From a virus, in the IMG/VR virus record IMGVR_UViG_3300013128_000050, positions 1 to 21,203 of that record: a stretch of 21,203 nt of DNA; one strand, 5' to 3'. Position numbers and translations under genes: made by a program. Positions 17,626 to 20,274 of the stretch are shown one piece after another (the stretch's first letter is position 1; each line of letters begins with the position of its first letter). Under the pieces are notes generated by a model. That model worked only from the letters and a program-made list of their open reading frames with translations. It did not search any database and was not told the origin of the DNA.

Positions 17626-17724
17626 TTGAACCAAACCGAACGCGATAAGAAAATCGCTCAGATGAGCGAGGACATAGCCCTCATCAAGCAGTCTATTATG
17701 GGCAACGGGATATTGATAAACTGA
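17626..17724 (+). CDS. Very small protein, truncated paralogue of the next gene, 32 aa
   Basis: TTG 17626 directly follows the fibre stop, with AAGGTGGG at 17614-17620 as ribosome site. The product, MNQTERDKKIAQMSEDIALI then KQSIMGNGILIN, matches the N-terminus of the next protein (PERDKKILEMSEQIDKL) and the soluble helical part of XhlA-like phage proteins, which usually continue past 'NG'. No membrane segment remains. It could be a real short regulator, for example a competitor in oligomer formation, or the decayed copy of a duplicated gene. The good ribosome site and exact fit between neighbours favour translation. Confidence 0.5.
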   Translation: MNQTERDKKIAQMSEDIALIKQSIMGNGILIN

Positions 17725-17742
17725 AAGCATATCGAGGATAAA

Positions 17743-17946
17743 ATGACCTCTCCCGAACGCGATAAAAAAATCCTTGAAATGAGTGAACAGATAGATAAGC
17801 TCAATCATTTGCTAAGCAACGAAGTAATACACAATATCAGGCTATTGACTAAGCGGCTCGATTTAATTCAGACGCTGGTATTTATTATTCTCAGTGGTGT
17901 GCTGCTTTCCATCGGTGTCGCTGCGCTGAAAATGTTTTTAGAGTAG
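17743..17946 (+). CDS. XhlA-like coiled-coil/single-TM protein (lysis accessory), 67 aa
   Basis: GAGGA at 17734-17738 precedes ATG 17743. Residues 1-42 form a charged amphipathic helix with heptad-like hydrophobics (ILEMSEQIDKLNHLL). Residues about 43-64 are a strong membrane helix (IQTLVFIILSGVLLSIGVAA) with a short tail. This layout, soluble coiled coil then one C-terminal membrane span, is that of the XhlA haemolysin-type proteins found beside phage holins, which assist membrane disruption. It heads the lysis cassette. Its first ~17 residues are near-duplicated in the small gene just upstream. A hairpin follows at 17955-17970. Confidence 0.72.
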   Translation: MTSPERDKKILEMSEQIDKLNHLLSNEVIHNIRLLTKRLDLIQTLVFIILSGVLLSIGVAALKMFLE

Positions 17947-17954
17947 AAAATACC

Positions 17955-17970
17955 CGCGAATGTTTTCGCG
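17955..17970 (+). other. Stem-loop between lysis genes
   Basis: A perfect 6-bp stem CGCGAA / TTCGCG closes a TGTT loop. No T-run follows, so it is not a standard terminator. It lies 9 bases after the XhlA-like stop and 27 before the next start, and could be an RNA-processing or stability element. Confidence 0.5.
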
Positions 17971-17997
17971 TCCGGTAGAAAATAAGGGTGTTTGGCA

Positions 17998-18438
17998 ATG
18001 CAAGCGGTGGTAAAAATGCTCGAACCTCGTCAAAAAATCATGCTTGCTCTTGGTGAGGGCGGTTGCTATTTTCTCAGTCTAGTTCGTCTTGCCGAAATCC
18101 TGGGGAACAAACGGATTGATGCTGTTGTTGCTTATCTTGAAGCGATAGCGGCGAAGAATCTGCAAGAGGACTGTTACGTTCTCAAACCTGAAGCAATCAT
18201 GCAAGCGCTCTATGGCGGGCGGTGGTATTTCCATAAAGAAGAACCGGGGTACAAATGCAAGCCGGGCGAGTTTGAAATCCTCCGGTATGAGCGGCCCACG
18301 CCGAAGCGGGTTTATTCGCATTTCGTTCTCGGCAACTGCGGCGGCGGGGTAGAGTATGATCCCCTCGGCGAATCTAATACAGTAGCCGGGGGCTATCTCG
18401 TATCCAAGCGAATCCTTCAAATGGTGATAGGTGCTTAA
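17998..18438 (+). CDS. Putative papain-fold (C39/DUF261-like) cysteine peptidase, candidate endolysin, 146 aa
   Basis: ATG 17998 is chosen over TTG 17992 because AAGGG at 17984-17988 is spaced correctly. An early GGCYFLSLVRLAEIL gives a cysteine (C23) at the start of a helix, as in papain-like peptidases. Near the end, VYSHFVLGNCGGGVEYDPLG provides a histidine (H108) starting a beta strand and an aspartate (D121) in a VEYDP turn. This Cys-helix, His-strand, Asp order is the signature of C39-like and NlpC-like enzymes, and resembles the DUF261 group. It has no signal peptide and sits between XhlA-like and holin genes, where an endolysin belongs. Peptidoglycan cleavage is therefore plausible but unproven. 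An inactive or regulatory family member, or processing of another phage protein, is possible. Its stop overlaps a shadow frame only; the next gene starts 15 bases later. Confidence 0.6.
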   Translation: MQAVVKMLEPRQKIMLALGEGGCYFLSLVRLAEILGNKRIDAVVAYLEAIAAKNLQEDCYVLKPEAIMQALYGGRWYFHKEEPGYKCKPGEFEILRYERPTPKRVYSHFVLGNCGGGVEYDPLGESNTVAGGYLVSKRILQMVIGA

Positions 18439-18453
18439 TGGAGACTGACCGCG

Positions 18454-18726
18454 ATGAAAAGCCTCCCCCTGGCAATCGCCATTTGTTTCGGAACTGGTAT
18501 CATTTCCGACCTCATGGTTACTGGCTATTATATTTGCGTTGGCCGGGGCCTTTCCTGGCTGGCTGCTGTGGTATCAATCCCAATAGCCTTGATGAATTTC
18601 TTTGTCATCGATGCCGTGCTAATTAGGGGCGGCTCTTGGCAAGGGGCGATAGCCTATGCCGTGGGGAATGCGGTTGGCTCTTTTCTGATAATGCGCCTTA
18701 TGCGAAACCGGAGGAAGAATGTTTAA
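18454..18726 (+). CDS. Three-span membrane protein, possible holin, 90 aa
   Basis: GGAG at 18440-18443 precedes ATG 18454. Three hydrophobic segments are visible at about residues 5-27 (LAIAICFGTGIISDLMVTGY), 33-57 (LSWLAAVVSIPIALMNFFVI) and 62-82 (QGAIAYAVGNAVGSFLIMRL), ending in a basic tail MRNRRKNV. Size, spans and position in the lysis region fit a class I holin. However, the GxxxG-like 'AYAVGNAVGSFL' segment also occurs in small phage membrane proteins of unknown role. An overlapping frame from ATG 18438 is a shadow. Its 3' end overlaps the 34-residue gene by 8 bases. Confidence 0.75.
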   Translation: MKSLPLAIAICFGTGIISDLMVTGYYICVGRGLSWLAAVVSIPIALMNFFVIDAVLIRGGSWQGAIAYAVGNAVGSFLIMRLMRNRRKNV

Positions 18727-18823
18727 CAACCAAGCCGGGCTAATCACGGCTATTGTTTGGATAGTGTTATGGGGCGGGGCGGCACTAATGATATTTCTGC
18801 CGTATTTCCCGCATGATAAGTAA
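18719..18823 (+). CDS. Tiny single-span membrane protein, 34 aa
   Basis: ATG 18719 is preceded by a near-perfect GGAGGA (18710-18715) four bases upstream, and the gene overlaps the preceding one by 8 bases. The product is MFNNQAGLITAIVWIVLWGG, then AALMIFLPYFPHDK. It has one membrane helix (residues ~7-28) and little else. The strong ribosome site, correct stop and placement between two membrane-protein genes support expression. It may act as a pinholin-like, antiholin or holin-partner peptide; the sequence does not decide. Easily missed by length cut-offs. Confidence 0.65.
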   Translation: MFNNQAGLITAIVWIVLWGGAALMIFLPYFPHDK

Positions 18824-18827
18824 GTAG

Positions 18828-18842
18828 TCCGCCGTTGGCGGA
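18828..18842 (+). other. Stem-loop after the 34-aa gene
   Basis: A perfect 6-bp stem TCCGCC / GGCGGA has a three-base GTT loop. It is followed by an A-rich stretch rather than a T-run, so it is not a typical + strand terminator. Confidence 0.5.
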
Positions 18843-18853
18843 TAAATAAATCT

Positions 18854-18863
18854 CTCACGTGAG
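18854..18863 (+). promoter_or_regulatory. Palindrome overlapping the ribosome site of the 66-aa gene
   Basis: CTCACGTGAG is a perfect 10-bp palindrome ending in the GAG of the GAGG Shine-Dalgarno (18861-18864). The start codon is 5 bases further. Dimeric protein binding or mRNA pairing here could affect translation of the holin-like gene; this is inference. Confidence 0.35.
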
Positions 18864-18869
18864 GTATGT

Positions 18870-19070
18870 ATGAGCGAAAATCTTAAAAAGGCTATCAGCG
18901 CGACTGTAGCCGCTGCCGCTTGCATCGCCGATGCCGTTGTGGGCTGGCTGGTCTACGCCAAAGCGCTGACAGAGCTTCCGCAGGTTCTCCCGGGTCTTAT
19001 TGTGCCTGCGGTTGTGGCTATTATGGCGCTTGTCCTGGGCAAGCCCTGGAAATGGCCTAGCTCTGAATAA
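18870..19070 (+). CDS. Small two-span holin-like membrane protein, 66 aa
   Basis: GAGG at 18861-18864 lies five bases before ATG 18870. Two hydrophobic segments are present: residues ~8-28 (ISATVAAAACIADAVVGWLV) and ~39-58 (VLPGLIVPAVVAIMALVLG), followed by a polar, proline/tryptophan end, KPWKWPSSE. Two membrane spans with a charged N-terminus match class II holins. It abuts the 3-TMS holin (TAATG overlap at 19068-19072), so the pair may form holin and antiholin or two components of one lesion. No family name can be assigned from sequence alone. Confidence 0.7.
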   Translation: MSENLKKAISATVAAAACIADAVVGWLVYAKALTELPQVLPGLIVPAVVAIMALVLGKPWKWPSSE

Positions 19071-19492
19071 TGCTGACGGGAAATGATGTGAAGGCCGCTG
19101 GCGAGGCAGCTAGCGGCCTCGTTTCCGGCCTCGGAGATTTCGCGCTAAAGCTACGCTCTGCTATCACGGGTAAGATAGACCCGGTTACTGAAGCGAAATT
19201 ACTAGAGCAAGCCGCACGGATAGAATTATCGGCGATGCAGGCGCAGGCCAAGGTAAACGAGATAGAAGCAGCGAGTCCAAGGTTTTTTATCGCCGGGGCT
19301 CGGCCCGCGATTATCTGGCTATGCGGCTTGATTTTGTTTTATTCCTATATGCTCATCCCGATAATTGCGGCCTGCGGCGTTAGACTTCCCAATATTGATT
19401 TGGGCAATTTATGGCCCGTGTTAACTGGGCTATTAGGTATATCTGGATTGCGGACATACGAAAAAATGAAAGGTGTTCAGGGGAAACACTAA
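19070..19492 (+). CDS. Holin of the 3-TMS superfamily, 140 aa
   Basis: ATG 19070 overlaps the preceding TAA. The N-terminal ~70 residues are a soluble helical region (ARIELSAMQAQAKVNEIEAA). Then comes the family hallmark SPRFFIAGARPAIIWLCG, leading into the first span (~residues 81-103) and LIPIIAACGV, then NLWPVLTGLLGISGLRTYEK for the final span. The 'F.aGaRPai.W' signature is that of the 3-TMS holins, common in proteobacterial phages and gene-transfer agents. It permeabilises the inner membrane at lysis time. It is the last gene of the contiguous + strand late block; the following 48 bases before the minus-strand gene contain a small GC-rich inverted repeat (CCGCCCGGCGG) without a T-run. 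Confidence 0.88.
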   Translation: MLTGNDVKAAGEAASGLVSGLGDFALKLRSAITGKIDPVTEAKLLEQAARIELSAMQAQAKVNEIEAASPRFFIAGARPAIIWLCGLILFYSYMLIPIIAACGVRLPNIDLGNLWPVLTGLLGISGLRTYEKMKGVQGKH

Positions 19493-19888: not shown

Positions 19889-19908
19889 TTTTGCATTGAG
19901 GAGTGGAA

Positions 19909-20274
19909 ATGAATAGGGTAAATAGAGATGCGGCAATTTATATTGCTGCATTTTGGGAAGCCGAAGGATGGGCGGGAGTTTATAAACACAAGAGTCATAG
20001 AACTGATAGAAAAAGACCCAGTATAACTATGGTTGCCAAGATTGGAATTAGTCAGGCAGATCGTTCAATCCTTGATTGGATTAGAAATCAAATTGGATGT
20101 GGTGCCATACATCAAACTATAAAACCTACTGAAAACAGAAAGGGTATATGGACCCTGAGATTGGCAAGTAAATCGGCACGTGATTTTTTAAGATTAATAG
20201 AACCCCATACTAGATTTAGAAAAAAACAAATCAATCAAATATTATTAGAACAGGTTCGATTTGGTAATAATTAG
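19909..20274 (+). CDS. LAGLIDADG-type homing endonuclease, single-motif, 121 aa
   Basis: GAGGAG at 19898-19903 sets the start at ATG 19909 rather than GTG 19903. Residues 11-20, YIAAFWEAEG, correspond to the LAGLIDADG helix, with E19 at the catalytic acid position. The rest follows the fold: VAKIGISQADRSILDWIRNQIG (strand, helix, 'lG'), GAIHQTIKPTENRKGIWTLR (strands, with the W in the usual place), and DFLRLIEPHTRFRKKQINQI, a 'l..i.p.l..Kk' end. One motif and ~120 residues indicate a homodimer. It is free-standing, in neither an intron nor an intein here. Codon use is far more AT-rich than its neighbours, indicating recent acquisition. Such enzymes cut a long site in cognate alleles and spread by repair. 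A DNA-binding regulator that lost cutting is an alternative. Confidence 0.82.
   Translation: MNRVNRDAAIYIAAFWEAEGWAGVYKHKSHRTDRKRPSITMVAKIGISQADRSILDWIRNQIGCGAIHQTIKPTENRKGIWTLRLASKSARDFLRLIEPHTRFRKKQINQILLEQVRFGNN

Follow-up and report, generated by a model that had tools for sequence, protein, structure and literature searches.

A DUF261 protein as a probable endolysin in the lysis region of a podovirus-type virus contig

Phage lambda carries its lysis genes as a holin/endolysin/Rz-Rz1 cassette. CHAP enzymes use a cysteine-based mechanism, and the type VI effector amidase Tae4, a papain-fold peptidoglycan enzyme with an NlpC/P60-like fold, shows the order Cys-His-Asp. The Pfam family DUF261 (PF03196) comprises Borrelia BppB and its relatives; in the literature searched, no paper contained the word DUF261 (DUF2612 and DUF2614 appeared as prefix matches only). 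In this study, we examined a DUF261 gene in the lysis region of a 21.2-kb linear virus contig of the podovirus type, whose head and tail genes include a terminase, a P22-like portal, an SU10-type adaptor, and tail fibres. The whole stretch of 21,203 nucleotides is referred to here as the window. Compared with the lambda enzyme, DUF261 is unrelated, and its resemblance to Tae4 is not significant. One relative of the locus (L009) nevertheless has a lambda-like gene order with DUF261 in place of R. The DUF261 protein would act in the manner of CHAP and NlpC/P60 endolysins, yet it tests outside those families.

The DUF261 protein and its predicted fold

The open reading frame (ORF) at positions 17998 to 18438 on the plus strand (ATG at 17998, stop at 18438) encodes a protein of 146 amino acids with the motifs GGCYFLSLVRLAE (C23), SHFVLG (H108), and VEYDPLG (D121), C23 lying in the stretch GGCYFLSL. 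A Pfam profile search, which the first-pass annotation of this DNA had proposed, placed the protein in DUF261 above the curated cutoff (E = 1e-13; 52.1 bits versus a cutoff of 26.1), with profile positions 4 to 136 (of 137) aligned to residues 8 to 141, and returned this family only. A PHROG match was not found, DUF261 being without a family in PHROGs. Since the ORF has a Pfam match, a relative with 64% identity (from a phage whose head module differs), and conserved Cys, His, and Asp residues, and since pN/pS is 0.13 to 0.30 in family members, it is not a chance ORF. Translation, Pfam match, and conservation thus confirm the 146-residue frame with C23, H108, and D121 that had been claimed from the letters. 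The protein is predicted to be soluble, with no signal peptide, hydrophobic segment, or membrane anchor.

Single-protein scans of viral contigs with the window protein and the terminase as queries returned nothing. The way to the family was opened by tblastn, which found DUF261 genes on Borrelia plasmids and, in virus record vir526, a remote family member (hhalign, 99%). Scanning viral contigs with a three-sequence alignment revealed eight DUF261 loci, and a wider profile added four viral loci and five in metagenome-assembled genomes (MAGs) of Treponema, Erysipelotrichaceae, and Bacilli. Matches were also present in 50 of 393 Spirochaetota genomes (over the cutoff in 40), and the strong ones were mostly multicopy. 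All 42 full-length sequences aligned keep C23, H108, and D121, and G22, F109, S136, and R138 show little or no variation; G22, C23, H108, D121, and R138 are shared between the window protein and the Pfam family. The other conserved cysteine, C59, varies among the 42 relatives and was rejected as the nucleophile for this reason.

An AlphaFold model of the window protein, built from a 17-sequence alignment, reached a pLDDT of 93 and a pTM of 0.88. According to DSSP, a helix begins with C23, H108 is part of strand 105 to 112, and D121 comes just after strand 118 to 120; a second family member with 30% identity shows a similar topology in its model. Both the order of invariant residues (Cys, then His, then Asp/Asn) and the predicted topology (Cys at a helix start, His within a strand, and Asp close to the strand that follows) are those of clan CA. 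The papain-like order of the putative triad, put forward in the first-pass annotation, is thereby supported by conservation and a confident model.

Foldseek searches with two DUF261 models yielded no PDB match, of clan CA or otherwise, at E ≤ 0.001; Tae4 was weakly present in both lists (E = 0.46 to 2.1; TM = 0.23 to 0.30), and PDB sequence searches with the single protein or the profile gave nothing meaningful. The BFVD matches were a viral protein without a name (E = 8.8e-8; TM = 0.78) and a stretch of a torovirus polyprotein (probability, 0.94; TM = 0.33). The fold is therefore assigned from topology and conservation, no solved homologue having matched significantly. Alignment of DUF261 with a CHAP and a C39 protein in hhalign was not significant in either case, and membership of the window protein in CHAP, NlpC/P60, or C39 is unsupported by these comparisons and by the Pfam scan. 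Of the comparison folds named in the first-pass annotation, DUF261 proved to be the family of the protein itself, and membership in C39 or NlpC/P60 found no support.

Lysis genes in the window and in relatives

In the window, the DUF261 gene is preceded by a gene for a 67-amino-acid protein with a coil-like N terminus and a predicted C-terminal membrane segment (17743 to 17946, plus strand). This protein has no profile match of its own and shows the same architecture as the XhlA-type proteins that precede DUF261 in loci L010, L021, and L019. Downstream follow a 90-amino-acid membrane protein with at least two hydrophobic segments (18454 to 18726), holin-like by position and with a weak, subthreshold DUF5698 match; a 34-amino-acid, one-segment membrane ORF overlapping its end (18719 to 18823); a 66-amino-acid ORF with two predicted membrane segments (18870 to 19070); and a 140-amino-acid holin of the GTA_holin_3TM family (19070 to 19492; PF11351, E = 3.6e-12; phrog_3427 holin, E = 7.8e-18), all on the plus strand. 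The earlier description of 17626 to 19492 as encoding only membrane proteins and the DUF261 protein is correct for these five membrane ORFs and fails for a 32-amino-acid ORF at 17626 to 17724, which has no membrane segment and resembles a truncated copy of the start of 17743 to 17946. No spanin was recognised in the window, which is an incomplete fragment; a canonical lysin could lie beyond its ends. Directly after the lysis region lies an ORF for a LAGLIDADG-type endonuclease (19903 to 20274; phrog_5046, E = 3e-14; Pfam match below the cutoff).

Besides the holin in the window, holin-like and spanin-like genes accompany DUF261 in most virus relatives. Among the phage relatives, small membrane proteins make up 25 of the 46 nearest same-strand neighbours of DUF261, versus 42 of 448 proteins elsewhere in the same sequences, as counted by simple ORF calling and a hydropathy threshold (odds ratio, 11.5; Fisher p = 2e-12). 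The recurring set consists of an XhlA-like protein with a coil and a C-terminal membrane segment before DUF261, a two-segment holin-like protein, and spanin-like genes. The XhlA-like protein of L010 matched a PHROG hemolysin (E = 1.2e-7), and that of L021 matched Pfam XhlA below its cutoff (E = 4.7e-4). In L009, DUF261 is followed by an 83-amino-acid, two-segment holin-like protein, a coiled-coil protein with an N-terminal membrane segment (N-TM), which weakly matched an Rz-like PHROG (E = 0.034), and, in another frame, a proline-rich lipoprotein with the lipobox LTSC.

Nearly all other virus relatives carry nested spanin-like pairs, with Rz-like profile matches at E = 4.6e-4 and 0.0053, and most differ from lambda in that the two genes overlap over nearly their full length. 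At these loci, the register of the overlap between the two ORFs, of approximately 100 to 170 amino acids each, is fixed. When one frame was shuffled synonymously, the second seldom stayed open (combined p = 3e-9 in one direction and 1.5e-5 in the other), and synonymous change is 0.43 to 0.51 in the overlaps versus 0.62 to 0.84 in the genes for DUF261, holin, and tail proteins. Both are therefore apparently real genes. Such pairs, in different frames and with starts usually 2 to 16 nucleotides apart, occur in at least seven phage groups, at L008 10632 to 11154, L010 10654 to 11028, L012 10433 to 10912, L019 3242 to 3665, L014 3062 to 3460, L024 2274 to 2660, and L002 8586 to 8987, among others. 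In roughly 70% of published embedded spanins, the inner start lies at about 0.4 to 0.5 of the outer gene (PMC6139136); relative to these, the near-complete overlap looks like an extreme architecture.

Two host labels sit oddly with these pairs. Locus L002 (vir526, BK063670.1; 7600 to 8987), with DUF261 and a nested spanin-like pair, is labelled archaeal (Methanomicrobiales), a label that may be wrong because the pair fits a diderm bacterium better. This record is a true relative, and we dropped it as evidence against a peptidoglycan substrate in view of that pair. In L019 and L020, which are MAG contigs under the names Erysipelotrichaceae and Bacilli, spanin-like genes adjoin DUF261, which is odd for monoderms; misbinning is possible.

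CHAP in place of DUF261 in sister phages and the proposed role

Pooled Pfam scans report the best 25 families, and a weakly matching lysin could escape them; seven single-family searches were therefore added. In 15 DUF261 records, Amidase_3, Amidase_2, Phage_lysozyme, Peptidase_M15_4, SLT, and NlpC/P60 gave nothing over the cutoff, while the same searches gave matches in control genomes; CHAP was found in G006 only, inside a 695-amino-acid frame. The seven families are thus absent from 14 of the 15 records, which are mostly fragments, some of 37 to 66 kb. The window itself gave nothing with the NlpC/P60 and CHAP profiles, and the profile searches bear out the earlier remark that no other lysin motif is visible in it.

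The holin of the L012 group led us to three contigs, G410 to G412, which were not among the finds of the DUF261 scans. Relative to G005, they share tail genes (42 to 60% identity), a 281-amino-acid membrane protein (75 to 78%), and the holin (66%) in the same order, and two of the three also share the reverse transcriptase (73%). After the holin, they encode a 96-amino-acid N-TM coil protein, an overlapping 92-amino-acid lipoprotein, and a 141-amino-acid protein that matched CHAP (PF05257) over the cutoff. DUF261 was not found in the parts of these contigs that were read (about 99%, 100%, and 95%), nor was the 141-amino-acid CHAP protein found in the parts read of G004, G005, G006, G015, and G016. 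The CHAP protein shares with DUF261 its size class, the lack of a signal peptide, and a matching place in syntenic cassettes, but no sequence or profile similarity. The simplest reading is that one endolysin was exchanged for another, though the gene order within the cassette differs, CHAP standing after the spanin genes and DUF261 before them. DUF261 thus has a natural replacement by a known endolysin in syntenic contigs.

Since the triad is kept, the surroundings are lysis genes in very different phages, and CHAP replaces DUF261 in sister phages, DUF261 is probably a new endolysin family. For the window protein, a role in lysis is likely, with murein hydrolysis by C23 as the best mechanism; the endolysin role suggested in the first-pass annotation gains support from the holin and spanin neighbours and from the CHAP replacement. 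The enzyme would be a compact cysteine peptidase (or amidase) of the papain-like type that builds up in the cytoplasm during infection, reaches the cell wall once the holin opens the inner membrane, and cuts peptidoglycan at its peptide stems or cross-links. C23 would be the nucleophile and H108 the base, and D121 would orient the histidine. We infer in this scheme the triad geometry, the holin-dependent release, peptidoglycan as the substrate, and the bond cut.

Alternatively, the protein could be a cysteine peptidase of the lysis cassette that regulates or processes holins, spanins, or a lipoprotein, with the murein hydrolase encoded elsewhere in the genome. Its usual position near small membrane proteins in phage loci, the fragmentary state of the window and most relatives, and the additional CHAP domain in G006 would agree with this, but the matching cassette of G410 to G412 has CHAP as its one soluble enzyme and no DUF261, and seven common lysin families are missing from the DUF261 records save for the CHAP domain in G006; we consider such a role unlikely. 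It is very improbable that DUF261 is a virion-maturation or structural peptidase encoded at the end of the tail module: the gene often follows tail genes (window, L008, L010, and L015), yet it stands after reverse transcriptase and holin genes in the L012 group and upstream of the terminase gene in L014, and its constant neighbours are of the lysis type.

Slightly less probable than the regulatory role is a function away from lysis, in which a phage- or plasmid-borne cysteine peptidase or transferase targets a protein of the host or the virus (for take-over or counter-defence) and its gene hitch-hikes near lysis genes. This draws on the spirochaetes. On cp32 and lp54 of Borrelia, unlike in the window, the DUF261 gene is found outside the blyA/blyB holin cassette, and its neighbours in Borrelia include DUF244 (bppA), ssb, and integrase genes; in the chromosomal context of a Treponema MAG, it comes after two similar genes that do not look phage-like. 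Both placements count against the endolysin reading, but a function away from lysis leaves unexplained the repeated holin-spanin location in different phages and the mutual exclusion with CHAP in sister phages. Under the endolysin reading, the Borrelia and Treponema copies may have been relocated or reused.

DUF261 in spirochaetes and further observations

We tentatively extend the endolysin reading: DUF261 may form an independent family in diderm hosts, mainly spirochaetes, that is perhaps adapted to peptidoglycan of the ornithine type. The family would then include the murein hydrolases, as yet without a name, that the Borrelia prophage plasmids encode (cp32 and the lp27/lp28-2-like prophages), a proposal that we hold with much less confidence than the role in the window. 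If the endolysin reading is right, it would give DUF261 its first function, as far as the searched literature shows, and thus a function to a domain present in hundreds of Borrelia plasmids; it would also add an endolysin family missed by annotation pipelines, there being no PHROG, and supply a candidate for the wall-cutting enzyme still missing for spirochaete phages. The genome of the Borrelia phage phiBB-1 was described in a 2024 paper that leaves lysis, holins, and endolysins unmentioned (PMC11008901).

Furthermore, lpG27 and related Borrelia plasmids (L073, 5979 to 6671) encode a longer DUF261 protein of about 230 amino acids, which in lpG27 stands among an N-TM coil protein, a hypothetical protein, and a BBA14-family lipoprotein. 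This set is possibly a lysis cassette separate from blyAB. In two Treponema MAG loci (L016, 8093 to 10399, and L017), DUF261 follows a gene pair with no phage genes near; the pair presumably resembles DUF2589, and a non-lytic use of the DUF261 fold is possible there.

Reverse transcriptase genes lie just before the lysis cassette in L011, L012, L013, L022, and L083 to L085. Those of the G005 set belong to RVT_1, and two different kinds occur in otherwise syntenic phages; they are possibly diversity-generating elements.
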